Program-made: the position numbers and the translations under genes | From: Certhia americana | Lineage: Eukaryota > Chordata > Aves > Passeriformes > Certhiidae | NCBI GenBank assembly: GCA_018697195.1 | Contig: JAGMWU010000027.1 | Coordinates: forward strand, 15,577,219-15,641,218 | Reading direction: 5' to 3' | DNA length: 64,000 nt | The notes under the pieces: model-generated | Database searches by the model: none | The model's input: only the letters and a program-made list of their open reading frames with translations | Told to the model about the DNA's origin: nothing | Shown: one piece after another, positions 35,247-61,691 of the stretch | Position numbering within the stretch: position 1 is the stretch's first letter | Layout: the number at the start of each line of letters is the position of its first letter

Positions 35247-36542
35247 TGTATTTGTTTTGGTTTAAGGTGTTGGGGTCAGCGGGAGACAGACGGCTCTCAA
35301 TATGAGAGATCAATGTCTCAACTTTATTCCATTAGTTATGTCTTTTATACAATTCATAATGAAGCTCATATGTAGTGCAAAAGCAGGCTAATCATTGGCT
35401 ACTTACAGAAATGTTAACTCCTCTTAGTTTATCACACTTGTGGATCAGTGTTAACATTCCTTTCCCTCTTTATCAGCTACAATATTCCGTTGCTGTTATA
35501 ACATTTTTTTACAAGGACATAGTGTCTTTGTCAGCTAAGCTAAGTATTAAACTTTGCTAACTCTGCACCTGCAAACTGATGTGGATTTACATGTCCCTTA
35601 TTCTTTAACCATTCTTCCACAATTCCCCTGTTTTCTTTTTGGGTAACCATCATAGCATTGCTAATTTTGCGTGTTATACATCCTAAAATTATTTGACTCT
35701 CTATTATTAATAAAAGGATAATGCTTAACTATCTTATGCTTTTCTTAATTAAATTTTACTCTAATAACTATTATCTGTGTTAAAAGGTTAAACTATTTTA
35801 AACTAACTATAATGTGCTACTTCACAGCAGATATAAAACATTAAAAGAATTACAATATCTATTAATACATACAAACTTAATTTCAAAAACTTTTTCTATG
35901 TGTATGGAAAAACTCAATTCATTGAACACATCTTCTAATTGTTCTAACACTGCTTCTGTCATTGTATTTGGTAGAAGAACAATTATGAATTTTTTCTATT
36001 TTTCTATGTGATAAAATTATCACTCTAATTTTGATTATGCCAATTAACAGATTTTTTTGTTTTTACGTTTTCATTTTCAATATTGTATTGGATTGCCTTT
36101 AACATTTGAGGAATGACAAGTTAAATTTGTCTTTAGAAATGAGCAATACTTCTTTTTGGCAACTGCAATGGAACTTGTTTGGATGTTGTGATCAGTAGAG
36201 TGGGTTTTGTGATTTACAAAACAACTTGTATCACATTTTTATATAAAATTCAGTTCACAGTCTTTTATATAAAAGATGACCAAAGTCTGTGATGTCAGCA
36301 GCAGTATGGTTCACGTTTGCATGCTCTTGTTTCTTTTCTTGGGGTTGTCTCTTGTTTGTTTCTTTTTTAGCAAAGTTTCATGCTTTTTGTTCAAATCCAT
36401 TTTTTGTTCTGCACCTGTTAAGATACAAACGCACTCTCCCGGTTATTTTCTGAAGTGAACTTTTACTAAAATGCTGCAATGTTGCAATTCTACCACTGAT
36501 GGCGCTGCTGTGCAACGCCGTGGTTTCCATGACAACCGCAAC

Positions 36543-37013
36543 TCATTGGTGTTCTGAGTCCTGGCCACTCCCTGTCCCCGTCTCCTTGGAGACGTGAAAA
36601 AAACCTAAAAAAACTTCTGCTACGGTCACCGCGTTTTTCTGTGCTTTTTCTCCTTTTCTCTGTGCGCGGCTGGCTGTGTAGCCGCTGCGCCTGCACCTGT
36701 CACGCGCGCTGCCTGCACCGCGTCGCTGCCGCCACTGCGCACGCCTGGCGCGGCCCCGGTCCCCGCCGCGCCGCTTGTGCCCGTCCGTGCTGGACGCACG
36801 CGCGTGCCCGCGTTGTTGGTCACTTGTGCCTCGCAGCCGCCGCTTGCCGCGGTCCCGGCGCGCGCCGCTGCCACCGCGCACGCTCGGCGCGGCCCCGGTC
36901 ACTGCTGCGCTGCACGTCCTCGTGCCGGCCCCCGCGGTCTGCCCCTGGGCAGCCGCTGTAGCCCCCGCGGTGTTCCCTGCCCAAGGTGGGCAAAGGCAAC
37001 GTATCCCCTGCAC
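36543..37013 (-). other. GC-rich block of C2 with a 156-codon frame
   Basis: Counterpart of the C1 block at 25460-25960. The minus-strand frame begins M-Q-G-I-R-C-L-C-P-P, as in C1, and is Ala/Gly/Arg-rich throughout. No domain, signal peptide or membrane segment is evident. It could be fortuitous in GC-rich DNA; shared start and frame in two copies is the only hint of coding. Confidence 0.4.
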
Positions 37014-37116
37014 CCCCCAAGCTGAAGTTTTTTTCCTTTCCTCATAACTTTTGGAGTGATCTTACCCCTCCCCCCCCCCCCCCCCCCCCCCCCCCGCTCT
37101 GGTGGGAGTTCTGCTG

Positions 37117-37516
37117 NNNNNNNNNNNNNNNNNNNNNNNNNNNNNNNNNNNNNNNNNNNNNNNNNNNNNNNNNNNNNNNNNNNNNNNNNNNNNNNNNNNN
37201 NNNNNNNNNNNNNNNNNNNNNNNNNNNNNNNNNNNNNNNNNNNNNNNNNNNNNNNNNNNNNNNNNNNNNNNNNNNNNNNNNNNNNNNNNNNNNNNNNNNN
37301 NNNNNNNNNNNNNNNNNNNNNNNNNNNNNNNNNNNNNNNNNNNNNNNNNNNNNNNNNNNNNNNNNNNNNNNNNNNNNNNNNNNNNNNNNNNNNNNNNNNN
37401 NNNNNNNNNNNNNNNNNNNNNNNNNNNNNNNNNNNNNNNNNNNNNNNNNNNNNNNNNNNNNNNNNNNNNNNNNNNNNNNNNNNNNNNNNNNNNNNNNNNN
37501 NNNNNNNNNNNNNNNN
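37117..37516. other. Assembly gap, 400 N
   Basis: The C1 copy has only about 54 bp between the same two anchors (25322-25375), so the true missing length is probably far below 400. The gap follows a long C tract, a common cause of sequencing failure. Confidence 0.97.
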
Positions 37517-38168
37517 CAGCTGTTCTGTGAGAACAAGCCTTTTGTGTGATCTTATGTCTGAACTGTCTTACCCACATATGTGTCTGCAAAATTGATCTGG
37601 TAGCTTTCTTGGTCCCGTCCTGCAGGCCTGCAGGTCTAAGTGGAGGAGTTCCCAAGGCACCTTGGGTTTCTTCTTCTCTCGGTCGAGTTTACAGCACATT
37701 TCCTATGCAGAGTTTTAGAGTCCTTTCTTATTTTTTCATTCTTTTTCTTTGGCTGATTTTCTTCTTTCACTTAAGAATGTAAAGTTTTGTTTTCTCCAGC
37801 TAGAGGTCTGCAGAGTTCTTTATAGCAGGTCAGCTTAAGGCACAAAATGTAAAAGTCTCATACATGAAAAAAATAGGGATCTCCTTATGAAGATGTATTC
37901 TCTTAATCTAATGCTTCTCTGGGAAGCAAGTAAATAAATCATATGCTGCTTGCCTCTTCCTTGATACCATCAGTGCTGTTGCAGCTTTGCAAGGTTTCGG
38001 CAGCACGTATTGGCCTAGGACTCTCCGCTGAGGTCGCCTGGGGTGCGGCAGATTCTATCGTCTGCTTATCACCATCTTCACTACCAGAAGACCTGAACAC
38101 CTGCGCGGACCCCTGTGGCTTCTCTCTCCTGTGGCTTCATGGCCACTAAGTCTTGCAGGTCTTCTCAG

Positions 38169-38186
38169 GTCCCTGTTCGGGCGCCA
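38169..38186 (-). promoter_or_regulatory. C2 primer-binding site, tRNA-Lys type
   Basis: Minus strand reads TGGCGCCCGAACAGGGAC, the standard Lys complement, two bases after the CAACA end of the LTR. Confidence 0.93.
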
Positions 38187-40303
38187 TTTGTTGGGGTCAG
38201 CGGGAGACAGACGGCTCTCAATATGAGAGATCAGTAAGTCTCAACTTTATTCCGTTAGTTATGTCTTTTATACAATTCATAATGAAGCTCATACGTAGTG
38301 CAAAAGCAGGCTAATCATTGGCTACTTACAGAAATGTTAACTCCTCTTAGTTTATCACACTTGTGGATCAGTGTTAACATTCCTTTCCCTCTTTATCAGC
38401 TACAATATTCCGTTGTTGTTATAACGCTCTTTTACAAGGACATAGTGTCTTTGTCAGCTAAGCTAAGTACTAAACTTTGCTAACTCTGCACCTGCAAACT
38501 GATGCAGATTTACCTGTCCCTTATTCTTTAACCATTCTTCCACACTAAGGTAAATTTGGGAGAAAATTTTTCAAGGTTTTTTTTGTTAGAAAATAAATGT
38601 AAGGGTTTTTTTTTTTTAATTGGTTTAGGAAAAAAATTTTGGAGATTAAAAAATGGAAAAAATTGTTTATTTAATAGGTAAAGTACTTTTTAGAATAAAA
38701 ATTAGAAATATTAAATAATAAATTTTTTTGTTGTTTTGAACAGCTGATAAATTTAGAAATTTCTTTTTGTGGGTTGTAGTTTGGTTTATTTCATTTATTG
38801 CTTTTTTTTTGGTATTGGAAATGTTGTAGCCCAGGCCAGGCCCTGGTGGGTTATAGGTGTGAGAATTTGGGGTTTTTTTTGGTTTTTACTTTAGAGTAGG
38901 TTTGAATAATCTTAAGAAAAAGAAAAAAAAATATAGTTTGGAGAATTTTTTGTTTTACTTACTTAAAAAATTATTAAAAATTAAAGGAGAGGTTTTTTTG
39001 TTCTTTGTATTGTAGATATTGTAGATAATATAGGCTGTGTGTGAGGAAAGTTGAAATTTTTTAATGCTTTGAAAATAATTGTTTTAGACATTTTCTTTTC
39101 TTTTTCTTTGATTTTAGATTTAGTTTTAAAGGTGTAAAATTTATTTTTTAGTTAAATAGATGAATGGGGATATAATTTAGTATTAACTCAGTATATTTTG
39201 CTTTATATTTTTATATTGTTAGCTTAATATTAATATATATTTTAATTTTATATATATAGTACATAGTTATATATAGATAATGGTAGTGACATTTAGTAAA
39301 TAATGATATTCACATATGGTTTTTAATTAATTAAATTTTTTTGAGGTATATATTGTGGTTTTTAATTTTTTTGTATTATTTATTATGTGTAATTTGGTTT
39401 TTGAGTAAAGATAATTTTATGGATGGGTTTGTTTGTATTTAAGATAGAATTTATTTAAATTTTTAAAATAAATTTTTATATGTATTATTGGAATTTTTTT
39501 TTATTTATTGTACGTAGGGGTTTAGATTGGGTAGGGTTTGTTTGGTTGGTGGATTTTCGGGTGAGAATTAATTAGGTGGTTTTTGTTAGATATTGTTTTT
39601 AATTTTTGAAAGATTTGTAATTTACTATTTTTAAGGTGGTTTTAATAGTTAATTGTAGTTTTTGACTTTGTAGTTCGTATATGGTAGGGGACATGGCATA
39701 TTTATTTAATGTTATATTTTTACTTTAGGCATTGATAAGGTTGTTTTTGAAATGAGTTTTTTTGTTTGATTTAATGTTTTAAGGGCATTATATTTATATA
39801 GGATTTGTTTTTTAAGTTTTAGGATAGTCTTATGGGTTGTAGTGTGAAGTATAGGGTAGGTTTTTAACTATTTAGTGGTGGGTCTTATAATTGTGAGCAC
39901 ATAGTGTTTATTTTAGTGTGTTTGGGGTAGTGTGATATAGTAAATTTGTTAAGGTTTTTTATATTTATATTTGGATTATTTTTTATTATATTAGAGGGGT
40001 TTAATTTGATTTGTTTGATTGTAGTATGTGTTTTATAGTTATGGATAATTTGAGAGATGTTGTTTATGGTTAGATTTATTTTTTGGTTTTGTGTTTACTT
40101 AGAGGTGGCATTTTTATTTTGATGACGAGGTATTATGAGCTTATTGAGTTAGGAATAACTTTTTTTTGTGCTGCTAATTTAAGTTTGGTTTTGATACTTT
40201 TATTTTTGTAGTTTGATTTATTTGTTTGTTGTTTTGGTGTTTTGATGCCTTAGGTTTTAGCTATTATATTTTTTAGACCCTGTGCTGTTTCAGTGAGTAG
40301 TTT

Positions 40304-40692
40304 TGGGTTTCATATTAAGTGCTACTAAGCTCTCTTGGCAGTGTGGATAGACAAAACAATTCCTTCTCTAGTTTGATATCAAGGACAACTTTCAGGTCCA
40401 GGAACGAAAACAACAGTGAAGTGAGAAGAAAAAACAAGGAGGATGAAGCTTCATAACCTGAAGCTATGTTTGGACAATTGATTCTAATATGCTAATGAAC
40501 CAGAACTTATAAAAATGTGAGACCTCGTGACCCGGGGGGGCATTTTTGTGACCACTTTGGGGTGCATCTTGAGTGTGGTCCATCTGGACTCTTGCGTTGC
40601 CCAAGTGTACTCATTGAGACCTTTTAATAAATACCTACTTTATCCTTTGCCCTGTCTAGTCTCTGTTCCAGGTCAGCCTCCAGAAGGCATCA
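40304..40692 (+). mobile_element. Solo LTR-J inside P, ends tentative
   Basis: A normal-composition island in the C-depleted P body, with TATAAAAA near 40507 and AATAAATACC near 40627. A 4-bp GTTT at 40300-40303 and 40693-40696 is a possible target duplication with TG...CA ends, but it is short and could be chance. Confidence 0.6.
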
Positions 40693-40913
40693 GTTTTATA
40701 TTAGTTTTATTTTTGGGGACATGGGTATTTATATGATAAATTTTAATAGACAATATTTTTATTTTGGTAGTGATTTTTAAAAGTTATTAGTAGTTTAAAT
40801 TGGTTTTTTACATTGTTAGTTTTTGGGGGTTTTTTAGCCATCCCCACAGAGTATTGGTTATTATTTATGAATTGGTGTAGACCTATAGATTTGGTTACTT
40901 TTTTTTATAGTAA

Positions 40914-41264
40914 TGTTAGTATAGGGTTAAAAAGTTCTGAGTTTAAAATGTTCTGAAAATCATGGAAAAAAAATCAAATGTAAATCTGAGGGAGGTAGGA
41001 AAAGAATGTTACGCATTGTTTTTGGCAGGCCATGTGAAATTGTACCTGTGATTAAGTGTACTTACGATACCACATAGAACAATATGAGTATGATTAATAT
41101 TGCTTGAACAATTATAGTTATATAATTGAATAGTATAAATATGTACATTTTGAGCAAGGCCGACAGAGCTAGATTTGGGTTTGTACCCCTAGCACCCTGG
41201 CCGCCATTAATAAAAGCATCTCACATATAATCCATCTCTGATTATGTGCGTCTGTATGCTAACA
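40914..41264 (+). mobile_element. D 5' LTR
   Basis: 351 bp, TGTTAGTATAGGG to GCTAACA, with AATAAAAG near 41208. Confidence 0.92.
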
Positions 41265-41267
41265 TTT

Positions 41268-41285
41268 TGGCAACCATAGATGGGA
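41268..41285 (+). promoter_or_regulatory. D primer-binding site, tRNA not assigned
   Basis: TGGCAACCATAGATGGGA starts three bases after the LTR. I cannot match it with confidence to a tRNA; an Arg-type complement is one possibility. Confidence 0.7.
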
Positions 41286-41521
41286 CCCTGTGAGTGCTGC
41301 TGAGCGAGTTTGCGACCTAATCAGACTCCAGCCGGCACCAAGGGATTCTTAGGGAGCCCATTGACCGCGACCGACTGCCACCTCACAACGTCCCTCTGGA
41401 GAGGTAAGGTGATTTTCAGTCTGGTCTGGTGCCTGCTGATAAGACGCAGCAAAAGCTATGCATGGTTGGGCTAAGGAATTCCTAGTAATGCCTAGGCACT
41501 GTCCGTAAGACAATCGCAAAA

Positions 41522-42441
41522 GTGTTGCAGGCTTGGCATTTGGTGGTATTTTGTATCTGTAATATGGAGAGGCTCAAAGGGTTTTTGGGTGGCAATGCCT
41601 TCATACCCAGCACTTCTCCTTTGGGGTGCTTATTGGCACATGGGAAACAGGGTAATTTTGGGCAAGATTTACGTAAGGATAAGTTGATTACTTATTGTAA
41701 CATATGGTGGCCAAAATATACCTTAGAGAGTGGGGAAAAGAGGTCGGAGAATGGATCTTTGCAATATAACACTATTTTACAATTAATGTTGTTCTGTAAA
41801 CAAGAGGGAAAATGGGACAAAGTTCAGTATGCTGACTTGTTTTTCTATTTACAGGAAAAACCGGAAGGGCAAGCTGAGTGTGGATTAATGGTAGTTAAGG
41901 TATGCGTGGATGATAAGTGTGCAGCGTGTGTGAAAAGGAAACATTGTTTAGACCATTTGGCACTAAAAGAAAGTTTGTATCAGAAAAACTATATGGATGA
42001 TGATTTACTAGTTACTCCAACAGCTCCAGATGAACCTGATCATTCACTTGACCCTATTTCACCTAACCCACTTTACACTACTTCACCTAATTTCATTTCA
42101 CCTGTCCCTCTTCACCCTCCTCTTCCACCTTCACCCATTCCTTCTTCCCTAGGAGACGATCAGAATTTAACTGTGATACAGAGAAATAGAAAGAATGTGG
42201 GTGGAGAAGAGAATAATAGTGGGGGTGAGGAAACTGAATCAGTGACCCCAGTATTCCACTGAACTCGGTAAAAACATGTCCCAGTACTGTCTAGAACAGG
42301 AAAGAGCTTATTAGGCTTGGGTAGGCAAAGGAGGACTGTGATTGCCCCCTTAAAACAAGGAGTGGGAGCAGAAGGACCAGTGTTTGTAAAAGTACCTTTT
42401 ACTCCTGGAGACTTGGTAATTTGGAAGCAGTTGGCTGAAAC
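41522..42441 (+). pseudogene. D gag, matrix and proline-rich part
   Basis: A 246-codon frame (41522-42262) with matrix motifs S-P-L-G-C-L-L near residue 32 and N-G-S-L-Q-Y-N-T-I-L-Q-L near residue 77, then a proline/serine-rich region. The native start is unclear because no M-G appears in frame. A stop at 42262 precedes the capsid N-terminus (42317-42441), which is cut by ERVK3. Capsid resumes at 47843. Confidence 0.85.
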
Positions 42442-42747
42442 TGTCGCAATACAACATGAACGAACACACATGCACACAACACCTTTCCTCAAGCGAGGCA
42501 GAAGAAAAAGAGGAAGTTTATTATAAAACTCTGATTTATATAGGTTACACACATTTTCCCCTTGATTGGTTTAACCGATGACCTTCTCTGAGACCTCACT
42601 GGTCAAATCATAGGTCCATCATCTCTCACTTCCTTTTTAGAAAGGAATGCAAACAATCATTGTTTACAGAAATGTGTGTGGGAATCTGACTCCAGAAATT
42701 CACAACATCAGAAGGCTAACAGAAAACATGCAAAGGCAAGGGCAACA
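42442..42747 (-). mobile_element. ERVK3 3' LTR (LTR-F)
   Basis: 306 bp. On the minus strand it begins TGTTGCCCTTGCC and ends TTGCGACA. It follows a purine-rich tract. Confidence 0.92.
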
Positions 42748-42766
42748 TCTCACCTTTTTTCCATTT
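42748..42766 (-). promoter_or_regulatory. ERVK3 polypurine tract
   Basis: The minus strand reads ATGGAAAAAAGGTGAGA directly before the 3' LTR. Confidence 0.8.
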
Positions 42767-42942
42767 AAAAAAGAAAATTTAAAAAGAAAAATGAACAATA
42801 TTTAATGTCCATTTGTGTAGGAGTCATCAGAATGATCACTTGCATCATCTGCATCTGAACCGTTACTTGATGATCCATCCACTGAAGACTTTCAGTTTGG
42901 TCACAGTTTCCATGTTGCCTGTTGGCTGCAAAAGTGACAGGG

Positions 42943-43900
42943 TTATTTGAGTTTTTGGGGCACAGTAAGATGATTGATGGTGTACAATGCCTTTGCCAAT
43001 CGACTGTGCGGGGTGTCACCCTGCATTCCCCGTTTTTGTTTTTGAAGAACCCACTTCAGAGTACCATGAGTGCATTCTACAAAACTTGACCAGTTGGAGA
43101 ATGAGGGATACCAAACTTGTGTGACACACCCCACGACTGCAGGAACTGCCGCACCTGCTGTGATGCGTAAGCAGGAACATTGTCGGTTTTCACAGCAGAA
43201 GGTTTGCCTAGAACAGCAAAGGCATGCCTCCAGTGGGCAAGGACATCGTGGGCCTTTTCTGCAGTGTGAGCAGAGGCCCACATGGCAGAGAACGTGTCCA
43301 CCATGACATGCACATACTTGAGCCGGCCGCACTCGGCAATCTGGGTGACATCAGTCTGACAAAGCTCCAAGGCCCTAAGGCCTCTGGGGTTCACCCCAGC
43401 CAGTAAAGGTGCAGCCAGTGCGTGACAGTCATCACATGACTCAACAATGTCACAAGCCTCAGTAGGCGTCAGCTGAAACTACTTTTGCAAGGTCTGTGCA
43501 TTCTGATGGAAAAACCCATGCGATGCCTTGGCCTGCGCAAGCATGTCAGGCTGAGGTGCTACCCACACTGGGCTAGCCAACTTGTCAGCCCTTGCGTTAC
43601 CTTCTGCTACAAACCCTGGCAAAGCGGTGTGACTTCTCACATGCAGGATGTAGTATGGATGAACGCGGTCCTGAATGGCACACCACAAGGTCTTCAGTAG
43701 ATGAAACAAGGCAGGATTACTGACCTCCTTTAAAACCGAATAACCCAATCGTTGTGTGATGTCAGCCAGATAGGCTGAATCTGTGACCAAATTGAAAGGT
43801 TCCTGGGAAAACTTCTCAAAATGCCATGACAGCAGCCAATTCAACCAATTGGGCTGGCCCATCCTCATGGCCTTCCAGAACTTGCCACTCAGTCCCATCC
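42943..43900 (-). pseudogene. ERVK3 RNase H and integrase
   Basis: RNase H end at 43479-43898: V-T-D-S-A-Y-L-A-D, then H-V-R-S-H-T and G-N-A-R-A-D-K-L-A. The zinc-binding F-F-H-Q-N-A-Q region of integrase follows, and after a stop C-D-D-C. The integrase core (43077-43394) has Q-T-D-V-T-Q and V-K-T-D-N. A frameshift falls immediately before the catalytic Glu, which reads F-V-E-C-T-H in the next frame (42943-43332). No C-terminal domain or env follows; 42748-42943 is short non-coding sequence. Confidence 0.82.
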
Positions 43901-45200
43901 CTCCAGGTAACAGTGGCCTTTCTTGTTTTCCCCAAACCGTCAGTGAAGACAGTGGGTCCTTACACTGGTTCTTGGCTATTTTTTGGGCCGCAAAGAGATT
44001 TTTATGAAATTTTTGCTACCTGTAGTAGCTTGTGTTTGGCAGATGACAAGTGATCTGCCCTGAAAAGTTTCAGAGCACTTTGCAGGAACACACTGTCTGC
44101 AAGGCTCCATTCAAAATCCTCCCTTTGTGTCAGGAGTATGATCTTTGCGGAATCTGCCCCCATTCAATTGCAAACACCATTGTCAGCCTTTGCCTATTAC
44201 GTGAGCAATTAGCTCAAAACTTCAGTTGCCGTCTTCTGCGGCTGATGAGGCAGAAAAACCTATTCCAAGACATGCAAGGGATCAGACCATTCGTCATTCC
44301 ATTGGTCAATGATACCTGTGGGATGTGAATCTGGAGTGGTAGTGAACACAATATCAACAGCAGGATCAATGCGGTAAACTTGGCAAGCAGAAATTAGCTT
44401 GCTGAACCTCCTCTAGCACTTGATGTGCCTCAGGGGTCAATGTCCGAGGTGATTTCAAATCAGAGTCTCCCTTTAATAAGTCAAACAAAGGACACAATTG
44501 TGCATTGGTCAGTCCCAGATACGAACGTAACCAAGTGATGACACCTACCAATTTGTGAACATCACTCAGTGTCTTCACCAAATGCACAAATTGCACCTCC
44601 TGGAATCAGATTATCCATTCCACAATTTTTGACCCCAAATGCTTCCATGGAGGTCATTGTGGAACCTTTTCTGGAGCTACCTGCAGCCCATTTGAATTCA
44701 AAGGATCAAGCGACTGAGGCCAAATCCTCAGCAGCCCATTGTGGGTGAACACAGCCACCAAAATGTTGTTTGTATAACAATACAGACGGGCATCAGGAAA
44801 CTGCCTGCGAACTCCAGACAAGGCACAGGCCACATACCATTGGCATATGGCTGGACTGTTCCTCATGCCCTGGGGCAAATTTGCCATTGATACTGCTGTG
44901 CGGCTCAGCATTACTAATTGCTGATACTGAAAAGTGAATTTCGGTCTGCCATCGGGATGCAAAGGAATTGTGAAAAAAAACCAATCCTTCAAATCCACAA
45001 TGAGAATTGGCCAGAAGCACGGTAGTCGCCGGCATGCACGCCTGCAATGTCCCCATGCCTTCCATCATGGCATTGACTTGTCAGAGGTCTTGTAACAACC
45101 TCCATTTCCCAGACTTATTCTGGATGCAGAGGACAGGAGTGTTCTAGGGACTAGCAGAAGGCTCCAAATGACCCTGGCCCAATCACTCCTACACCAGTTC
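43901..45200 (-). pseudogene. ERVK3 reverse transcriptase
   Basis: RT pieces in several frames: M-E-G-M-G-T-L-Q near 45060, D-L-K-D-W-F-F-F-T-I-P near 44990, L-P-Q-G-M-R-N-S-P near 44870, thumb and connection at 44366-44596. The catalytic box reads Y-T-N-N (44765-44776), so both aspartates are asparagine. Broken by frameshifts at about 44998 and 44650. Confidence 0.82.
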
Positions 45201-45221
45201 TTGAAGGGTGACTAATGTGTT

Positions 45222-46230: not shown

Positions 46231-46236
46231 GAGAGG

Positions 46237-49933: not shown

Positions 49934-51004
49934 ATGACAGGGTGGTGTCACCGGTGGATCATGGACTATGGACTAATTGCGAAACCCCTGTATGAAGCCC
50001 GTAAGACACAGCCGTTTACCTGGGGCAGACCACAGAAGGAGGCCTTCCTCAAATTAAAGGAGGCATTGACAACTGCTCCTGCGTTAGGATTAACCAATTT
50101 GTCTAAAGACTTTCAACTGTTTGTACATGAGAGGCAACGCCTAGCACTGGGAATGCTGACCCAATGCCTGGGAAGCTGGAAAAGGCCGGTAGGCTACTTT
50201 TCCAAACAGCTTGACAACATAAGTGCTGGATGGCCTTCATGTCTACGGGCAGTTGCAGCCACCGTGATGCTGATACAAGAAACCAGAAAACTGATGATGG
50301 GTAGAAACATAGATGACTATGTACCACACATGGTAACCACTGTTTTAGAACAAAAGGGGGGCCATTGGCTATCCCCAAGCCAGATGATAGAATTCCAAGT
50401 AATCATAACAGAGCAGGATGATGTAACATTAAAGACAACTAACCTTTTGAATCCAGCTTTGTTCCTAGGTACCACAACTGAAGAAGGCCCACTAGAACAT
50501 CACTGTGTAAAAGTAATAGAACACACCTATTCAGCTAGAGGAGACCTGAAAGACATTCCATTAGAACAACTGGACTGGGAGTTATTCACAGATGGAAATA
50601 GCTTTATGGAGAATGGGACCAGATACGCTGGATATGCGGTAACAACAATAAGTACAGTGGTGGAGGCAAAGGCCTTACCATCAAACACATCTGCTCAACA
50701 GGCAGAACTAATTGCCCTAACCAGAACACTAGAATTGAGTAAAGGAAAGAAGGTCAATATATGGACTGATTCAAAATATGCTTTTGGAGTGGTGCGCATC
50801 CACAGGGCACTGTGGAAGGAAAGAGGACTGCTGTCTTCTCAAGGTACACATATCAAACATCAAGATGTAATCCTGCAATTAATAAAAGCAGTACAAAAAC
50901 CTGAACAAGTAGCAATTATGCATTGCAAGGCACACCAATCAGGAAACTCCAAAATTTGTGAGGGAAATCGGAAAGCAAATTGGACAGCTAGGCAAGCTGC
51001 TTGA
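49934..51004 (+). pseudogene. D RT connection and RNase H, 356-codon open frame
   Basis: The longest open frame in the window. Connection-domain motifs F-T-W-G near residue 28, P-V-G-Y-F-S near 85 and S-A-G-W-P near 97 precede a full RNase H: F-T-D-G-N-S (Asp at about 50591), A-E-L-I-A-L-T, W-T-D-S-K-Y-A-F-G-V. The tether is normal for a gammaretrovirus. It ends in a stop at the RNase H/integrase boundary. Confidence 0.9.
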
Positions 51005-52212
51005 AAAGTGCAAATTGAAATGGCATTAATACCTTCAAAACCCAATATATTTCAATTTAATTTGCCTCCAAAACTGAACTATTCAACAGAAGATGAGAAG
51101 TTAGGGCATTCTTTAAATGCACAAAAGAATTCAGAAGGGTGGTATATCATTGCACTGGGACAAATAGTGGTACCCCCTTGATAATGAGAGAAATTTTACA
51201 AATTAAACATAATGAATGTCATTGGGGAGCAGAGACATTGGTGAAAATGCTAAAACGAAGTCTAATCTCATTATGGATGCTAACGATGGCAAAATCAGTA
51301 ATGTCAAAATGTGAAATCTGCCTAAGGAATAACCCAGTAGCTAGACAACAGGCACAATTAGGAAGAATTTGAATAGGAATAGAACCAGGAGATTATTGGC
51401 AAGTAGATTTTGTTGAATTGCCAAGGACCCGAGGGTACAAGTATCTGTTAGTAGGGACTGATACATTATCTGGTTGGCCAGAGGCTCTTCCCTGTCGCAC
51501 AAACCAGGCAAAGGAAACCGTTAAATGGTTATTACAAGAAATAATTCCAAGATTTGAGGTGCATCTAGGAATATCATCAGATAGGGGCCCACATTTTATC
51601 GCCACAGTAGTGAAAGAAGTGAGTAGGTTGCTCGGAATAGCCTGGTACCTACATAAACCATGGACACCCCAATCAAGTAGACAGGTAGAGAGGATGAATC
51701 AGACACTAAAAGGGCAAATTAACAAAATATGTCAAAAAGCTAAGTTACAATGGCCACAGGCTTTACCAATAGCATTGCCGAGAATCCAGATAAAAACTAG
51801 GAGTGGGATGTCCGTGAGTCCTTACAAGGTACTGTATGGGAAATCATATGAATCTCCTGAACCAAACCCAAGTGTACATATTACAGAAAAGCAAGAGGTG
51901 TATAACTATGTTTTGTCTCTTGGGAAAACTCTAGCTCGGCTTCGGAGCACCCTCATGTGGAATAGACCGCTGACTCTCGAAAATCCGGTCCACGGTATCC
52001 ATCCAGGAGACATGGTGTACATTAAAACCTGGAACTAGGCGCCACTGAAAGAAAGGTGGAAAGGACCCTACCAGGTATTGCTGACCACCTTCACAGCAGT
52101 CAAAGTAGCTGAAGTGGATCCCTGGATACATTACACCAGAGTGAAGAAAGTTCATGAACTGTGGACTGCACAGGGGGATGGGCCAATGAAGTTACAGATA
52201 AGATGTATTTAA
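51005..52212 (+). pseudogene. D integrase, catalytic residues intact
   Basis: Zinc domain at 51139-51372: H-x3-H (residues 24 and 28) and C-x2-C (58 and 61) are present. The core frame 51418-52038 continues the D-D-E set: Asp in Q-V-D-F (51406), Asp in S-S-D-R (51580) and Glu in Q-V-E-R (51688), with 35 residues between the last two. The C-terminal domain has H-P-G-D-M-V-Y-I near 52002 and, past a stop at 52036, [11 protein letters not shown] near 52058. Stops at about 51180, 51370 and 52036 break it. Confidence 0.9.
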
Positions 52213-54461
52213 CTGTTTCAAAATGTTCGGGTAATCAGTAATTGTGACAATGCCCATTTTAGGGCTATTAGTGTCATGAGCAGGAATCAGTGTTACTTTG
52301 GGATGTGAAATGTAACAGGATCAGCTAATAGCTCTTCATTCTAGAATGAAGAGAGATGTTCAAACAGGAACACAGGTGATATAGGTTTCCAATGCAATTC
52401 AAGCAGAAAATGTAATGATTGGATTAATCAAAGACTTTGCCAAAATGCAAAACACTAGTAGAATAACTGCCTGTCTGCCAATACCAAAGGCTGCAGGAGA
52501 CCCGACAAATTGGGGAATAATAACATCTGATTTACCCAAGATACAAAAGATCAAAACAATTGCATGGTAAACTGGTACCAGAGTCGAGACAAGTAATCAA
52601 AGAGACCTGGAAACTAATAGGAGAATGGATGAAACCTATGAGAAAGCAAGACTGTATTGCAAGTCATGGCAAAATAGGGGAATTTATAAAGTTGTCACTA
52701 TTGGATCATAACAATATAATATGGGAATGCTTCTTGTGTAGTGGTCTGCCCTGCAGATAGGGGTGGAAATCTTAAATCCAAACCATGGGTCAGGTCTCAG
52801 TCAGGGTGAGCTGGTACCCACCCCCAATTACCTCATTTGGTTTATGGAAATCATTTCCAGAAAGTTCTCAGTTCTCGTTGTTGTTATTGGTTAACTTTTG
52901 CTGCAATATTTTCCATATTCCTAATCGCCTTCCCCCATTGGATTATCCCTACTTTCTCCACCCTAAACCCCTCCCCCGTGTTCGTGCTTAAGAATGCTGT
53001 TACCCTGGACCTTCCCGCTCTTTTTCGGTCCATTCCCTTGTACGGTGCACAGCTTATAGTTTGTTATTTTCCCATTATTAAAAGGTTCTGTTTCTGGACG
53101 ACCAAATCAGAGTGTCTCTCTCACAAAGACGCCAAGGGTGGGTGACCTGAGACGAAGCTCCGGTTATCTCATCCGGGCTAGAATCGGACGCTTCATTCTT
53201 GCCAAAATATAAAAAGGCTAGAGAAAACGTTTCAGATACCATTCTTGTATGGAAGTGTGAAGAAAAAGATTGGAAAGATCGAACTGAGACCTGGGACAGC
53301 ACATGGTCAATGAGTATACTCCAAAAATGCCAATACATGGCAGACACCCCCATGTGCATTAAATAGGAGGGTTCTGAAAATGAGACAGACCCAGGAGTAA
53401 TTAATACTGCCACTAGCAGTAAATTAGAGGCAAATAAATTGGTGGACATGTGATAAGATTTATAATTGTGCCTCATGATATAGAAATAAAACAAATGCCA
53501 CCACTGGCAGTAGCTTTGCGAATTGGTTTTGCCTGTAGAGGAGTCAAACACAAACAAGGTAAACTGAATTATAGAGTAGCAATAGGGTGTAGTAGAAGTA
53601 CAGTTCAGAGTCCAGGACAATTTGTATGGGCCTTAAGTGATGGCACTTGGACTATCCATCTGCCTGTAGATGGTAAAGTAAAAGAAAGTACTTTAGGCCT
53701 CCCCACTTTATGCCCAATTTGGAAGAAATCCCCTATTTAAGGGAAAACATGAACTTCTACAAATAAGAACAAGACGGGAAGTTCAGGAAAATGAAAATCA
53801 GGATGAGGAAGCTTGGCAAGAACCCTCTAGTGGAGTAAAGTTTGGATGGGCCCTAGAATCCTTGTTCTGTCCTATAGCAAATAATCAAAATAGAGAAATG
53901 CTGTACAAACTTACAGGTCAAGTGGAAAGATTGGCAAGAGTCACCAGAGAAGGGTTTAAAGAATTGAATGTGCGATTACAAGCCACAACAAAAATGACCC
54001 TGCAAAACAGATTAGCCTTAGATATGCTACTCCTAAAGGAACATGGAGTGTGTGGATATTTAAAAGAACAAATAGATCATTGCTGCATCCACATCCCAAA
54101 TGTAACTGCAGATGTAGAACATGACATTAGTCGGTTAAAGCAAGTAGAACATGAAGCACAGGAAAAACAAAAAGACTTAACTACAAGTTGGATAGATAAA
54201 ATTTTTAAAGGGTTAGGATGGAATGTAAGTTCATGGATTAAATCTATCATTGAGAATTTGATAATCCTGATGATCATGTTTTTAGCAATTTTGTTAATCT
54301 ATGCTATTCTGAAAAGAGAAATACAGAAAAGAGCATCCTGGAATCAGAAGAAAATAAAAGCATTGACCCGAAACAGAAACCCGCATCCCTCATCCTCACA
54401 TCTTCTGGCCCAAGATAATGCTTATAACAACTGTAGATTTGAAGATGATCATCAAGTCTAA
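52213..54461 (+). pseudogene. D env, split by solo LTR-H
   Basis: The surface subunit is in pieces at 52216-52736 and 53202-53860; the LTR-H insert lies between. The transmembrane subunit frame 53862-54461 (199 codons) has a heptad region, an immunosuppressive-domain-like stretch, a Cys/Cys-Cys motif whose spacing is nine residues, a second heptad region and an anchor I-I-E-N-L-I-I-L-M-I-M-F near residues 129-150, then a charged tail. The frame is open to its stop at 54461. The gene is inactive through stops in the surface subunit. Confidence 0.82.
52737..53195 (+). mobile_element. Solo LTR-H in D env, TSD TTCTTG
   Basis: 459 bp, TGTAGTGG to GGACGCTTCA, with a perfect 6-bp duplication TTCTTG (52731-52736 and 53196-53201). 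It is the same family as 4091-4550. Confidence 0.95.
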
Positions 54462-54513
54462 AAACTGTATAAAGTGAAAGCATTACACTTATTATAGTAA
54501 CGTGAAATACTTT

Positions 54514-54528
54514 CAAAGGGGGGAATAA
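54514..54528 (+). promoter_or_regulatory. D polypurine tract
   Basis: AAAGGGGGGAATAA directly before the 3' LTR. Confidence 0.88.
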
Positions 54529-54880
54529 TCTTAGTATAGGGTTAAAAAGTTCTGAGTTTAAAATGTTCTGAAAATCATGGGAAAAGAAATCAAACATAAA
54601 TCCAAGGGAGGCAGGAAAGGAATGTTATTCATTGTTTTTGGTAAGCCATGTGAAATTGTACCTGTGATTAAGTGTACTTACGATAGCACATAGAACAATA
54701 TGAGTATGATTAATATTGCTTGAACAATTATAGTCATATAATTGAATAGAGTAAATATGTGCATTTTGAACAAGGCCGACAGAGCTAAATTTGGGTTTGT
54801 ACCCCTAGCACCCCGGCCACCATTAATAAAAGCACCTCTCATGTAATCCTTTTGTGATTATGTGTGTCTGTATGCGAACA
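54529..54880 (+). mobile_element. D 3' LTR
   Basis: 352 bp, matching 40914-41264 throughout. The first bases read TCTTAG instead of TGTTAG. AATAAAAG lies near 54825. Confidence 0.92.
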
Positions 54881-55305
54881 GTAATGTTTATGGTTAGTTG
54901 AATGGTTTTGAGTTTAGTGAGTTGGCTTGATTTATTATTTTTTTTAGTAGCTTTTGAGATTTTTTGTGTTGGGTTTTATATGGTTTTTTTTTACTTTTGT
55001 TTTTTTTTTATAATGTGATAAGAATTATTAGTAAAAAGAGTGTATTGTGCTTTTTCTGCTGGCAGTTGGTTGTATGGTGGAGGTTTTAGTATGTATTATT
55101 TGATTTTGTTCTTTTTTGCTAGTTAGATTAAGGTTTTCATTTTTGGGTTAAATTCGTAAGTATTTTTAAAATTTTCGGGTGACTTAGCTTTTTAACATGT
55201 GTGTGTTGTGGATGAGAGTAATTTATTTGTTTCATGTGGTATTGGTGGTATGGTGTGTAGAGGGAATTTTTGGTTTGAATATTTATTTTAGTATCGGTAG
55301 TCAGG

Positions 55306-55920
55306 TCTCGGGTTTTATATACGCGACGATGTTTTTCCCGAGAGTGTAAAAGTCTTTTGCCCAGCACCGAGATAGAAGGAAAAAACCGAGAGCCGTCTCC
55401 TCTGCTTCTTCAAGGCTGTTTATTTTTCTCTTATCAGCACAATTTCTTCTCTGACCCACAGAGATCTGTTCAGCAGGTCAGCTCACGGGGAAGTGACCCA
55501 GCCCCAAAGGTGACGATTATCTTTATACTACAAACTACGTAATCAGTATTTATAATTCTTCACCAATAACTATTTTCTATGTTAGAAGGTTAGATTCTAT
55601 TCTAAGCCAACTATAATGTGCCACCTCACTGCAGAACATGGAGGCAAGGAAGAAGAAGGAAGAAACCCAAAAGCCATGTGCTTCCTCCATCTTGTCATCA
55701 CCTGCTTACCATCCTAAAATCCCCATATATCTAAAATTCTCACCCTGTGATAAAACTATGCACTATTCTACTATTTAATACACACTCTTAAATACCCTGC
55801 TTCATTTCAGAGCTTAAAAGCCCTTTTTCCATGAACAAAGGTTAAAAACACTGTTTGTCAGAGATTCTAAAATCTCTCAAACATGCAAAGAGAAATTTGT
55901 CATATTTCCAGACTCCGACA
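55306..55920 (-). mobile_element. Solo LTR-B in P, TSD GTCAGG
   Basis: 615 bp. On the minus strand it begins TGTCGGAGTCTG and ends AACCCGAGA. The 6-bp duplication GTCAGG is perfect (55300-55305 and 55921-55926). Its composition is normal while the P sequence around it is C-depleted. Confidence 0.95.
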
Positions 55921-56659
55921 GTCAGGGTGCCAGGAGGAGCTGTGTTTTAGTGTTTATTACTTTCTAGGTAGTTTGGATTTTTTGATAGGTTGTTAAATTT
56001 TTTTTGGGGGGGTGTAGTTGGTTTTTGATTTTTTGTAGTTTTTATTTAAAAATTTTAATGGTTGACTTTGAGATTTATTAGGTACTTTTTGTTAAACATT
56101 TTAGGATAGATTTTTTTTTTTGTAGTAGAGTATGTTTCTTATATTTGATTTTGTTTTGATTAGGCAAAGAGTTATTGTATGAATGGTTTTTTATTTGATT
56201 TGGGTGAAGGTATGTTGTTGTTTAGGGTTTTATTGGAAAGCGAGTTTTTTGTGGGTAATTAGGTAAAGAGGGTTTATGATTTGTTTGTATTTAGGAATAT
56301 GCATTTTTTAAAAAGTTTACAGTGCTTAGGAAAATTTGTAGGTTTTCTGTTGGTTGGTGGAGACGTGATTTTGTTGATGATATTAGTGGAAATTTGATGT
56401 TTATTTTGTTATTTTATTTTTAGGAATTGGATTTTTTGAGTAGGTTTTTCAAGTTTGGGTTTTTTGATGGTGAAATTAGTTTTTAGGAGAATTTGGATTT
56501 TTTTAAAATACTTTTGTTGTGCTTTTTATATAATGATATTATTCATCTATTGTAGATGTTTTAGAGTTTTAGTTTTTTTAGTGTAGTTTGAATTAGTTTA
56601 TAGTAGATGATAGGATTGTATTTTTACTTTTGGGGTAGTTTGTTTTAGATGTATTGCAC

Positions 56660-57081
56660 TGTTGTAGACAGGTAAATAAAATATAAAAGAAATGCCTCAT
56701 AAAATCAGTCCTTGCTCTGCTAAATTAATAGCTAGCTTGTCACTTCTATGTGCAGCTAAGTGGCTTGCAAATTCCCATGTGAAAACAGTCTTGGGAATGA
56801 GAGTTCGTTAACACAACAAACTATTCCTGGGTGAAAAACAACTGCACCTGCAGCAAATAGGAAACCTGTCTCATGAGAATCAGTGAACAAAATATGTAAA
56901 CTAACCAAGAATAGAGAGATTTGATGGACAAGCAAAATACCTTTTACTTACCAATGGGTGAAATGTACATCTTTGGTGAAAGAAATGTATAAAAGGAAAT
57001 ATGCTGTTAAAATAAAACTTTTTTCTGCCTTGGAAACTTTTGGTCATTACTCTCTGTGTCGCGACCGTCCTGACAGCGACA
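56660..57081 (+). mobile_element. Solo LTR-K in P, TSD TTGCAC
   Basis: 422 bp, TGTTGTAGACAGG to CAGCGACA, with a perfect 6-bp duplication TTGCAC (56654-56659 and 57082-57087). TATAAAAGG near 56990 and AATAAAAC near 57012 set plus polarity. Confidence 0.95.
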
Positions 57082-58858
57082 TTGCACTCCCCTTTATGTG
57101 AAAATAAACTGGGGTTCCTATTTTGTTGTTAAAGGAATGGAGAATGTATTTGTAATATTAATAGTGGTATAGTATTTTGTTGTTTGGGATTTTAGCTTGT
57201 GTTGGAGTTTTAATGTTTGGCACAGCAGTGCTTAGTGGTGCAGTTATTTTATTTAAGATATGATAGTTTATAGTTAATTTTTTTTAAGATTTGTGTATAG
57301 GTTAAATGGGGTTGAAGGATGAGTGGGGTTTGGGTTTTTAGTTTATGGATTATTTTATGGATGGGAATTATAGTATTTTGAGTTGTTTTGTATGGTTGGT
57401 GGTGTATTGTTGAGGTGGTAATTAGTATTTGTTGGGTTTTTATTTTTAGGAATTTTATTGTAGATAGATTTTTTGATAGTTTAGGTAAGGAGTTGAATTG
57501 CTTGATTTTATTTTTATAGCTGTTCTTTTAAATGTTTATTTGAGGGTTTTTTGGGTTTTGAAATATTTATTTTGGAGGAAGTTTATGTTTAAAATGTATG
57601 GGGGTTTTGGGTTAGTGGATGGTTTTTAAATTTATTTTTAGTTAGGCTTGTATTAGTTTTTGCTAAAGTAAAATGTTGTGATTTTTTTGGTATTCTAGTA
57701 ACAGAAATAGATTTTGTTTTTACATGTTTTGATGGGATTAATGAGTATTGTGTATTACTGTTGATTAAGGTTTTATATTTTTGTGGTTTTGACGTGATAG
57801 GCAAACAAATTTATATGGTCTAAAACCCATGGTTTTCTTTAGCTTTTATTCGGCTAGAGGCAGGTCTTTTTTACGTTTTTTAATTTTTTTTTTGGGGGGG
57901 CATATGATTTGAAGGGTTTTTTAAGGGGAATGGATATGTTATTATTATTATTATATTTGGTAGTTTGGTTACGGGCTACTGGAGTTGGTTTTTTTGGTGG
58001 AAATTTTTTTTTTTTTAGTTTTGTTGTTTTGCAATTTAAATACTTGCGTTAGAGTAGTAGTAGAGTTTTTATTTTATTTTTATGGGTTTTTTATAGTTAT
58101 GTACGAAGAATTATAGTTTAGTTTGTGGGGTGTATTTTTATATTTGAGGGACATTTGTATTTGGTATTGAACTTTTGTATTGGAGAGATTTGGATACAGT
58201 TTTTTTTCTTTCTTATTAATATTTTTTTTTTGGTTTTTGTGATTTTTATTTATTTTATCTTTTTAATTTTTGTAGACATGTTTTTATAGTTGTAATTTTT
58301 GTATGTGCTGGGATATGTACAGTATCTGTATATGTTTGGAGCTTTTTTGCTTTATTAAGTATGTTTTTTTGTGTTATTTTACTTTATTATTGTCAAAGTA
58401 GAAGTGCATTTTTCTGGTTTAAGTTGTATAAGGTTTTGCTACATTATGGATGTATATGGTATTAAGTTTGGATTTTTAGTTGTTAGGTTATTTGAGAAGA
58501 TAATTTTTGTTATTTTTATTTTTTGAAGAGTCGAATCATTTGTTTTATGGTTTTTTATTGAGTTTGTTGTATATAGAGGTTGTATATAGATATTTTTGTG
58601 CTACTTTTTAGGATTTGTGCTTAGAGATTGTGAGGGTTAGCTTTTTTATTATTTTTTGTTTGATAATTGGATTATGTGATAGGGATTTTAAATGCTTCGT
58701 TTTAGTATTGGTTAGAATTGTAGCTTTGTAGTGTTTTAAAGATAGACTAACTAATTAATTATAGATTTATTAAATTGTTGAGTGCAATTGTTTTTAGGTT
58801 ATGAAGGTTTTTTAGAGAAACGGACTTAATAATGACTTCTTTTTGTGTTAGTTGTTGG
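57082..58858 (-). pseudogene. P protease and adjoining gag-pol sequence, hypermutated
   Basis: The minus strand is A-rich and G-poor. At 57748-57762 it reads N-S-N-T-Q in the context T-L-I-...-Y-S-L-I-P, where a retropepsin signature belongs. Every difference from the D-(S/T)-G-A-Q pattern is explained by G-to-A changes in the coding strand. The position is about 2.2 kb from the PBS once insertions are removed, right for a protease after gag. The rest is too altered for me to align by eye. Confidence 0.65.
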
Positions 58859-59576
58859 TGTCGGAGTCTGAAAATATGAGGAATTTCTCTTTGCATGTTT
58901 GAGAGATTTTAGAATCTCTGACAAACAGTGTTTTTAACCTTTGTTCATGGAAAAAGGGCTTTTAGGCTCTGGAATGAAGCAGGGTATTTAAGAGTGTGTA
59001 TTAAATAGTAGAATAGTGCATAGTTTTATCACAGGGTGAGAATTTTAGATATATGGGGATTTTAGGATGGTAAGCAAGTGATGACAAGATGGAGGAAGCA
59101 CATGGCTTTTGGGTTTCTTCCTCCTTCTTCCTTGCCTCCATGTTCTGCAGTGAGGTGGCACATTATAGTTGGCTTAGAATAGAATCTAACCTTCTAACAT
59201 AGATAATAGTTATTGGAGTAGAATTATAAATACTGATTACGTAGTTTGTAGTATAAATATCCACACCACCCTGAGGGTGGGAACATTAAGCTTTTAGACA
59301 TTTGACATTGAGCATTTAGACATTTAGCATTGGGAACATTAGGCTTTTAGTATTTCGTAGTGAGTAGTTGGGCATTTGTACATTTTGCAGTTACCTTTGG
59401 TATTTGGAATGATAAGAAAAAATAAATTATGAAGAGAAAAGCCTCACGCTCGCCTTTCCTTCAAGATCTCTGGATGGTGAAAGCAAAACAATACTTTACA
59501 TTCTTGGAAGACAGAAGAGATAAACAGCCGTTCGGCACAGGAAAACAAAAACCAATAATTTTTTATAAATCCGAGA
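58859..59576 (+). mobile_element. Solo LTR-B in P, TSD GTTGG
   Basis: 718 bp, TGTCGGAGTCTG to AATCCGAGA, with GTTGG at 58854-58858 and 59577-59581 (a sixth base mismatches). AATAAA is near 59419. Normal composition in the C-depleted P body. Confidence 0.92.
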
Positions 59577-60681
59577 GTTGGTTTTAATGTTTTTTTTAAA
59601 TTTTTATTATTGTTTATTGGTTAACTGGTTTTAGTTGTGTGTTTTCTGCTTCTCATGGTAGGAGTAATAGTTATTGGTTGAGGCTTACTGTCTGGTTTAG
59701 TTGTTGGTTTAGGTTTATTGTTTGGTTTAGTTATCATTTGAATAGTTGGGATGTTGGTTGTAGTTTGAGTGACTGGAGTAGCTGCTGATTTGGTTTTTTG
59801 TATTTATTCTTTGCCCTACAGTGTCTAGAAGTGTGTGATAAGTATGTTAGGGTTTAGCTTATTGTAATGAGGTTTGGTTTTTTTAAGAGTTATTATGGTA
59901 TTTTTTTAAAGTATTTTTTAATTTTATTTGGGTTTTGAATTTGTTTACGTGGAAAATTTTAGGTTATAGGGTTAGAAATTTTTTTTCGGGTTTGATTTAT
60001 ATTTTCGTATTTTTTATACTATTTAGGATTTTTTACATTTGGGTTTACTCCTGAGTCAGGGGTTTTATTAGCTTTTTTTTAAATTTTTGTTTTTATTTTA
60101 GATAAGTTGTAAACTATATAGAGGAAGCTTATTAGATTAAATATTAGGAAGGCTTTTTTAATATTTAAGGGAAACTGAAGATTTTTTAAAAGTGATGTAA
60201 CAGATTTAAAGGAGAAGAGGGAAAGGAGAGGTTTAAAAGTTTTATTTCTTGCTCTTTTTTTAATAAACTGGGTGCAATTATTAATAAACATCCAAAACAT
60301 GTTACTGGAACTGGGACGTAGGGTAGGACGAAGAAATTATAAAATATATATATTTGGATGAAATTTTAGTGCTTTTGTAACTTTTTTATAAATTATTATT
60401 ACTACATTTAGTAAAATAGCTATTTTAATTTGTGTTCTTTTGTTGTAAAAACTATGTGTTAGGAATAATATTGGAGTTATTTTTGGATAAGAAAATAAGC
60501 TTAGGGACTATAAAGGTATTAAAAATTTTTAAAAGTTTAGGGACTGGAGAAAAATGAAGGCTTTTACTGAGAGAGACATTATGAATTAAGTAATATGGTT
60601 ATTGACTGCTTTATCTTAATATAGAGTAAGTATGAGTAAAATGTAATTAGCATAGTTGTTTTTTTTTTTTTACTTTTTTAA
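59577..60681 (-). pseudogene. P leader and gag 5' part, hypermutated
   Basis: Lies directly downstream of the P PBS in P orientation. The minus strand has an open frame at 60079-60300 rich in K, N, I and F, as G-to-A editing would produce. A Gag identity is inferred from position only. The tract 60658-60672 is almost pure T on the plus strand. Confidence 0.5.
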
Positions 60682-60699
60682 ACCCCACATTGGGTGCCA
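60682..60699 (-). promoter_or_regulatory. P primer-binding site, unedited
   Basis: The minus strand reads TGGCACCCAATGTGGGGT, close to the Lys(1,2)-type complement of betaretroviruses. A 5-base spacer separates it from the ACA end of the 5' LTR. All its G are kept, whereas the sequence immediately left is edited. Confidence 0.85.
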
Positions 60700-60704
60700 A
60701 TTAC

Positions 60705-61691
60705 TGTATTTGTCTTGGTTTAGGGCAAATTTGGGAGAAAACTTCCAAAGGGGTTCTTCTAGAAAACAAATTTAAGTGGCTTTTTCTTTAACTGGTTTGG
60801 GGAAAAAATTTCTTTGGAGACAAGTGGAAAAAACTGTTTATTTAACAGGCAAAGCACTCTCTAGAAAAAAAAAAGAATAATAGTAAACAACAAAACTTCT
60901 CGCCGCTCTGAAGGGATGACAAATTTAGAATGTCTCTTTTGTGGGTTGTAGCTTGGCTTAATTAGTCTGTTGTTAGTTTTTCTGGCAGTGGGAAATGCCG
61001 TGGCCCAGGCCAGGCCCTGGTGGGTTACAGGTGTAAGCTTTTGGTGCTCTTTTGGTTCTTTAGTCCAAAGCAGGTTTGAACAGCTTTAAGAAAAAGAAAA
61101 AAAAAACCTACAGTCTGGAGAATTTATTTGCTTTAGCTAGCTAAAAATCTAATAAAAAGCAAAGGAGAGTGTCGCCCTGTTTTCGCATGTTTTTTCTTAG
61201 CCTTCTGATGCTTACATTCTTGTAGTGGAGTTTCTCACGGACTTTCATGTAAACAATGATTTTTTTCACATTCCTCTCTAGAGGAGGTGAGACTTGATGG
61301 ACTTTTGGTTTGACCTGTGTGGTTGAAGAGGTGGCAACTTCACCCTCCAATCCCTGGTCACCTTTGGAATGATATATATATCGAGGTCACACAATAAACT
61401 TCCCTTCTTTTCCTCCTTGCTCTGAGAAGAGAGTTGTCGTGAGTGTGTGTGTCTATTTGTGTGTCTATAGCGACAGGAGAGCTCTCTCCCTCAGTCCACA
61501 CTGCAGACAACACAGGCTGTGTGTGAGGAAAGATGAAAACTCTTATCTTTATGTTTTGAAAACAACTGCCTCAGACTTTTTACTGCTTCTCCCTCTCTTC
61601 CTTTTACTTTCAGATTTAGTTCTAAAGGTGTAAAACTTATTTCTGAGCTAAACAGATGAATGGGGATAAAATTTAGCATCAACCCAGGACA
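60705..61691 (-). mobile_element. P 5' LTR, unedited, containing a solo LTR-F
   Basis: On the minus strand it begins TGTCCTGGGTTG and ends AAGACAAATACA. About 675 bp after removal of the 61170-61475 insert and one target copy. It pairs with the left LTR (35247-39195) but retains its cytosines. A minus-strand AAATAAAC near 60840 is the poly-A signal. Confidence 0.88.
61170..61475 (+). mobile_element. Solo LTR-F in the P 5' LTR, TSD GGAGAG
   Basis: 306 bp, TGTCGCCCTG to ATAGCGACA, with a perfect 6-bp duplication GGAGAG (61164-61169 and 61476-61481). A TATATATATCGAGG and then AATAAAC near 61391 set plus polarity. The left P LTR lacks this insert, confirming the empty site. Confidence 0.95.

Follow-up and report, generated by a model that had tools for sequence, protein, structure and literature searches.

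A provirus with extreme strand-biased G-to-A hypermutation in the bird Certhia americana

Results

A fragmented provirus almost devoid of C on one strand

We analyzed a 64,000-nt stretch of the Certhia americana genome (the window), in which positions 35248-61691 hold an endogenous retrovirus (ERV), here called P, that lies on the minus strand and has been broken up by later insertions. P begins with TG at 35248 and ends with CA at 61691. Its right long terminal repeat (LTR), whose inner edge is at 60705, is the 5' LTR, and its left LTR (35248-35267 plus 38546-39193) is the 3' LTR, interrupted by a younger ERV. The 6-bp flanks, gggaag and gggagg, match at 5/6 positions, or at 4/5 if taken as 5 bp. 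P is a G-to-A hypermutated provirus, in which editing is biased to one strand and runs in one direction; given its orientation, plus-strand C>T reads as G>A on the viral strand.

The edited segments of P sum to 5971 bases (A 1498, C 260, G 1283, T 2930), with C at 4.35%, which bears out an earlier note on this DNA that had described them as nearly C-free on the plus strand. The stretch 39421-39480 has no C in its 60 bases. Across ten 500-base bins C ranged from 2 to 7% and T from 42 to 54%, and most insertions between the segments were not C-depleted. Among the 12 C-free runs listed for the window, the eight longest all fall within P and the ninth lies outside it.

The LTR pair of P was aligned under four scorings, which gave similar counts. 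From right to left LTR, the 615 aligned sites showed C>T at 78 of the 94 C and G>A at 9 of the 120 G (Fisher p = 1.5e-31), with the reverse changes at 4/176 (T>C) and 3/191 (A>G). The C>T and G>A rates on the same strand are thus far from equal; the 78 edits that separate the two LTRs amount to 127 per kb, and all dinucleotide contexts changed on one strand. The long list of C-to-T differences announced before was recovered, but the claim of few others was too strong: in one piece of the LTR alignment, piece A, 56 of the 108 mismatches are not of the edit type, so P is old or the alignment partly poor. Viral C>A changes outnumber other transversions in the 3' LTR, with 12 of them between 60705-61169 and 38546-38992 where most relatives retain C; alignment noise may contribute. 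The right LTR was also considered as an unedited copy, a reading refuted by its relatives, which show it to be partly edited; it is C-normal only relative to the left LTR.

P against an unedited-like relative

As reference we used an unedited-like relative from the same genome, R2 (L010, L011, L033 and L034), which is 63-75% identical to P and whose own LTR pair, taken as a control, gave no G>A and three A>G in 458 columns. Over 4947 aligned sites, 986 of 1126 viral G had become A and 140 were kept, while A>G was found at 42/1391 sites; C>T, at 102/994, was far below G>A, and T>C was counted 115 times. Editing in P is thus one-directional and on the viral plus strand, as had been proposed. G>A accounts for 64% of the mismatches, or about 199 per kb as measured against this distant reference. 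With nearly nine in ten G changed, the extent is indeed extreme. The alignment to unedited relatives with a count by context, which the earlier note had suggested, returned a G>A excess and also a CC/TC preference, detailed below.

One could argue that no editing took place, and that CpG decay, an ancestral family already poor in C, or an artefact of chemistry or assembly left C nearly missing over such long runs. We give this a negligible probability: every dinucleotide context is altered, on one strand; most insertions within P are not C-depleted; and unedited-like family copies are G-normal, with 21-24% G in the LTRs of R2, L012, L017, L019 and others, so the ancestral family is not itself G-poor.

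LTR asymmetry and a rise toward the 3' end

Compared with eight unedited-like relatives, the 5' LTR of P was 26-41% edited and the 3' LTR 82-91%. At the G sites of these eight references, piece A was edited in both LTRs at 38.6%, in the 3' LTR only at 51.9%, in neither at 9.5% and never in the 5' LTR only; for piece B the values were 21.6%, 58.9%, 17.0% and 2.5%. As the 3' LTR of P is saturated, scarce 5'-only edits are expected and carry no weight. The argument that 5' edits form a subset of 3' edits was therefore set aside as uninformative for P, and weighs only in a second provirus, R1 (L006 plus L009, LTRs in the same orientation that are joined by uninterrupted sequence). In the two LTR pieces of R1, 3'-only edits made up 19.3% and 41.5%, and 5'-only edits 4.3% and 2.3%.

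Over the interior of P, the edited fraction is 0.68-0.80 in the 1.2 kb nearest the primer site and reaches 0.93-0.99 over the final 0.9 kb, a rise with a Spearman coefficient of 0.164 (p = 3e-8; p = 0.13 for C>T as control). In R1 it is 0.16-0.18 over the first 1.6 kb and 0.43-0.58 thereafter (p = 1e-16, 2735 sites). The rise toward the 3' end is as predicted by longer single-strand exposure, followed by displacement of the 3' LTR. Reverse transcription rebuilds both LTRs from one template in each round, so the 3'-LTR-specific edits date from the last round. The single replication round proposed earlier is supported for these edits alone, which affect 52% and 59% of the reference G sites in the two LTR pieces; the edits common to both LTRs and the internal ones could be partly older.

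Alternatively, an already edited element could have been recopied and edited again. The edits in the 5' LTR of P, as well as the many family copies edited to differing degrees, agree with such a history, which we nonetheless find unlikely. The 3'-LTR-specific edits come necessarily from the last round. At C/T-only sites of piece A, the distance of P's 5' LTR is 59 per thousand to L012 and 63 to L008, both unedited-like, and 81-87 to the edited R1; most of the editing of P and of R1 was therefore probably separate. Besides, an earlier heavy round predicts more editing in U3 than in U5, whereas the first U3 piece holds fewer of the edits common to both LTRs, in bins that are noisy.

Gene conversion from a less edited copy might instead have overwritten the 5' LTR of P, in which case the asymmetry would be silent on timing. 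The family is abundant, and the process could yield an asymmetry in P alone; it is, however, quite unlikely, as the asymmetry of R1 has the same direction and the internal rise is independent of the LTRs. Moreover, 3'-LTR-specific edits have been published for mouse Mtvs and attributed to minus-strand displacement, according to the accessible text of PMC12548423.

Sequence preference and host deaminases

Against R2, editing of P by viral context was.956 for GG,.923 for GA,.810 for GC and.764 for GT (minus-strand CC, TC, GC and AC). The earlier statement that all contexts are affected is right in that every one is edited, but the appearance of indifference comes from near-saturation over a clear CC/TC preference. 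For 20 moderately edited LTRs (three references, without the under-edited footprint described below) the values were.70,.56,.35 and.30 in the same order, and for R1 they were.45,.30,.25 and.18. This is a deaminase-type dinucleotide preference, with minus-strand CC and TC over GC and AC.

As stated in the available part of PMC5391955, AID prefers WRC and APOBEC3G prefers CCC. Editing at WRC, SYC and other sites was.33,.53 and.58 in the 20 LTRs and.20,.33 and.35 in R1, while the trinucleotide sums for P against R2 were 218/271 (WRC) and 285/302 (SYC). Hence, an AID-type WRC preference was absent from the 20 LTRs, R1 and P.

The host genome gave six APOBEC_N matches. The one on C28 has APOBEC-2 as its best solved structure. 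Three on C1 (29571025-29572163) are exons of one gene, the central exon being closest to AID, and two further exons near this AID-like gene (C1:29561373 and C1:29542778) have APOBEC-1 as best solved structure. The exon at C1:29561373 is open over 154 codons, contains the catalytic motifs HAE and PC..C, and scores 154.7 bits against APOBEC1 and 156.6 against APOBEC4_like in Pfam. Among the best 120 of its 133 protein matches, almost every named entry is an APOBEC1 or ABEC1 protein of a bird, and the best named among the matches listed are from oscine songbirds (81-87%). The other exon (L030:1501-1728) also carries HAE and PC..C, and an apparent local duplication follows it.

From sequence, the likely editing agent is an APOBEC1-type enzyme of the host that prefers CC and TC. 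The AID/APOBEC1-like enzyme invoked before is thereby retained in its second half: APOBEC1-like exons are present, and AID appears disfavoured. AID also requires single-stranded DNA, and an AID-like gene exists in this genome; we still hold AID as editor to be very improbable, with WRC edited less than SYC in the LTRs and in R1. Birds are not known to possess APOBEC3. In the accessible portions of the sources, reptile and bird A1 homologues are mentioned (PMC3880073), A1 is presented as an ancestral DNA editor (PMC5399452), and the mutator data quoted there concern lizard and opossum.

An under-edited stretch in the LTR

A 28-base GC-rich stretch of the LTR was under-edited in 23 of the 25 LTRs edited at 0.30 or above, a set that includes the two LTRs of P and the two of R1; of the 23, L041 is lower only marginally. 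In the 3' LTR of P, summed over eight references that are not independent, 18/75 G sites were edited inside this footprint and 636/644 outside. When 130 windows were scanned with a correction for copy and dinucleotide, the footprint was the coldest (observed/expected 0.46), and of 583 local folds retained for the 5' LTR after thinning, the two of lowest energy overlap it. The footprint may stem from a fold, a residual RNA hybrid or a bound protein.

The internal segments of P contain nine runs of at least three kept sites, against 3.1 expected. One run, at 40838-40847, has seven kept G sites with a predicted pairing of 0.09, and another, at 59809-59825, has six with 0.38. Hairpin protection as a general rule was not supported by the pairing tests, and survives for the one LTR stretch only.

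The family of LTR copies

Placing the window in the 1.07-Gb genome assembly also brought up further copies of the LTR, and a search with the 3' LTR of P as query added more. Because they were picked by likeness to P, edited copies are over-represented, and the counts are lower bounds. In at least 43 distinct copies, G>A at the G sites of six references, outside the footprint, varied from 0.08 to 0.92 (one row, L044_2777, resembles a poorly aligned other repeat); by the same measure P reached 0.99 in the 3' LTR and 0.45 in the 5' LTR.

Besides P, three copies are near-saturated: L051:1501-1839 (C17), with 0.3% C over 339 bases, L067 (C23:6006000) and L041 (C21:2938610). The flanks of L041 and L051 are not C-depleted, as for solo LTRs. 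L049 (C1:1064055) and L042 (C27:8608052) have one flank that is C-poor (8-11% C) or G-poor (10-13% G), and are probably further hypermutated proviruses. Many of the listed LTR matches lie on C27, the 15.8-Mb contig that carries the window and is perhaps the W chromosome.

Classification and structure of P

The reverse transcriptase (RT) region of P matched that of another ERV of the window, Q (4582-4980), with 69% identity over 371 columns and a symmetric score of 193 against a maximum of 37 in five shuffles; G>A was counted at 72 sites, A>G at none, and G was kept at six. The RT piece of Q gave 365 protein matches, and of the 120 listed those with a name came from birds; Pr125Pol chains ranked first among solved structures. 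For an open reading frame of another ERV in the window, the best named protein matches were from passerines. We take these chains to be foamy virus, and Q presumably reads as ERV-L. By this RT relationship, P appears to be an ERV-L-like (class III) element. The P-to-Q alignments were each run with five shuffles, and S5 (193 vs 36.6) and S4 (60.6 vs 33.6) were used. With asymmetric scores, S1b (126.0 vs 132.8) and S3 (71.0 vs 90.0) fell below the shuffled maximum and S6 (104.2 vs 102.8) was barely over it; with symmetric scores, these three gave matches of just 24-58 columns, near the shuffled level.

The primer binding site of P is, we assume, of the Lys type. An assignment to betaretroviruses, drawn from the primer site and the 6-bp flanks, was rejected because the RT comparison points to ERV-L. 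ERV-L elements are not known to carry an env gene. None of ten stop-free pieces of P matched retroviral Pfam families, so its gene content is not readable, and no relative was found in a search of viral contigs. ERV-L target duplications are of 5 bp in the available text of PMC6523648. Q itself (735-5300) is a second ERV-L-like element, lacks P-like hypermutation, and has a part (4091-4553) that recurs at 52734-53195. The features of P are collected in Table 1.

Table 1. Segments of P, insertions into it and under-edited stretches, in window coordinates
Feature	Position	Strand	Observations
3' LTR of P, left end, edited, truncated by nested ERV	35248..35267	-	one C>T and one G>A vs right LTR inner edge
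Later ERV nested in 3' LTR of P	35268..38545	-	LTRs 35268-35621 and 38189-38544, 96% alike; not C-depleted; includes assembly gap
Remainder of 3' LTR of P	38546..39193	-	near-saturated; 99% of reference G sites edited outside footprint, piece A
Under-edited footprint, 3' LTR	38822..38851	+	8 C in a row retained
P internal, 3' end	39194..40275	-	G>A 224/238 vs R2 (L010)
Insertion, edges approximate	40276..40699		not C-depleted
P internal segment	40700..40906	-	G>A 32/40 vs R2; contains 7-site kept run 40838-40847
Later nested ERV, edges approximate	40907..54884	+	LTRs ~40911-41264 and ~54526-54880; not C-depleted
P internal segment	54887..55315	-	G>A 87/98 vs R2
LTR-like insertion	55316..55949		55337-55920 copied at 15923-16518, inverted at 58859-59281
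P internal segment	55950..56650	-	G>A 146/157 vs R2
Insertion, edges approximate	56651..57119		not C-depleted
P internal segment with RT region	57120..58858	-	G>A 333/377 vs R2 (two stretches)
Insertion, edges approximate	58859..59559		only moderately C-poor
P internal segment adjoining primer site, lowest editing	59560..60682	-	G>A 164/216 vs R2 (81/103 + 83/113)
Primer-binding-site-like stretch	60683..60699	-	7 G retained; leader immediately after is G-poor
5' LTR of P	60705..61691	-	partly edited, 26-41% of reference G sites; inserted repeat ~61170-61475
Footprint in 5' LTR	60988..61036	+	coldest region of LTR piece A over 25 edited LTRs; two lowest-energy local folds overlap

Discussion

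We consider it highly probable that P records the deamination of its complementary DNA (cDNA) in two phases, likely by an APOBEC1-type agent, followed by integration and by insertions that were not edited. During reverse transcription, C in the still single-stranded minus-strand cDNA of this old, ERV-L-like element would have been deaminated to U, which reads as G-to-A on the viral strand. A first phase, before plus-strand strong-stop synthesis, would have edited some 20-40% of the LTR sites and left its marks in both LTRs, presumably within the same round. In a second phase the 3' end of the minus strand, displaced and single-stranded for longest, would have brought the 3' LTR and the 3' half to near-saturation. 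P would then have integrated, and the later insertions into it escaped editing. The under-edited LTR stretch may have been folded or hybridised at the time.

Several observations weigh against this account. In piece A, unedited-like LTR copies already differ from one another by 8-16% G>A, and R2 is only 63-75% identical to P, so part of the G>A in P is ordinary divergence. The rise in R1 is a step rather than a slope, and a clear target duplication was read for neither R1 nor R2. The footprint is weak or missing in L067, L051 and L041, whose editing is exceeded only by that of the 3' LTR of P; in L067 and L051 the stretch is fully edited. Finally, predicted folding fails to account for kept sites in general: in R2 folds, the G sites that P kept have a lower pairing (0.392) than those that were edited (0.436; p 0.05), and the pairing of residual C, 0.529, is barely above that of random placement (mean 0.506, maximum 0.532).

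P represents an extreme case of a phenomenon already known. Knisbacher and Levanon reportedly described G-to-A edited LTR retrotransposons in zebra finch in 2016. Songbird LTR-element editing is cited in PMC6523648 and PMC6497032, and the zebra finch elements resemble P in being songbird ERVs whose G-to-A editing is attributed to APOBECs, as far as the accessible texts go. Two of them carry 71.5 and 57.2 G>A per kb (PMC12548423), compared with about 199 in P, whose reference R2 is more distant; the published rates are stated to be measured against relatives of the same type. The top rate in that comparison, 120.8 per kb with 10.8% G, belongs to mouse Mtv21. Like P, Mtv21 and Mtv17/61/62 have edits shared by the LTRs plus extra ones in the 3' LTR only, with Mtv21 as the extreme. 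Unlike P, they were edited by mouse APOBEC3 and differ between LTRs at 2-16 positions, against 78 edit-type differences in P, which moreover is an ERV-L-like element in a bird host. HIV-1 edited by APOBEC3G shares with P regional gradients (PMC12548423) and a CC-type preference, CCC (PMC5391955), in the parts of these papers available; in P, by contrast, the preference is CC then TC and the rise spans the whole element. The available literature, which did not cover the zebra finch study, contained no description of P, or of LTR asymmetry or footprints in birds, and we claim no absence from print.

Tentatively, and with less than even confidence, P might be the most heavily G-to-A edited provirus described, a bird APOBEC1-type enzyme might have converged on the CC-first preference of primate APOBEC3G, and the family might serve as an in-vivo archive of minus-strand cDNA: where it was single-stranded and for how long, and where structure or residual RNA shielded it. 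Dating by LTR divergence fails on hypermutated elements such as P. Restriction-type editing came near saturation here in a bird, in a class not known to possess APOBEC3, and P documents the timing of reverse transcription, the preference of the enzyme, and where and when viral DNA was within its reach. With LTRs edited from 8% to 92%, together with the 45% and 99% of P, the family allows enzyme preference, the order of steps in reverse transcription and a possible structure of the cDNA to be tested on genome sequence alone.

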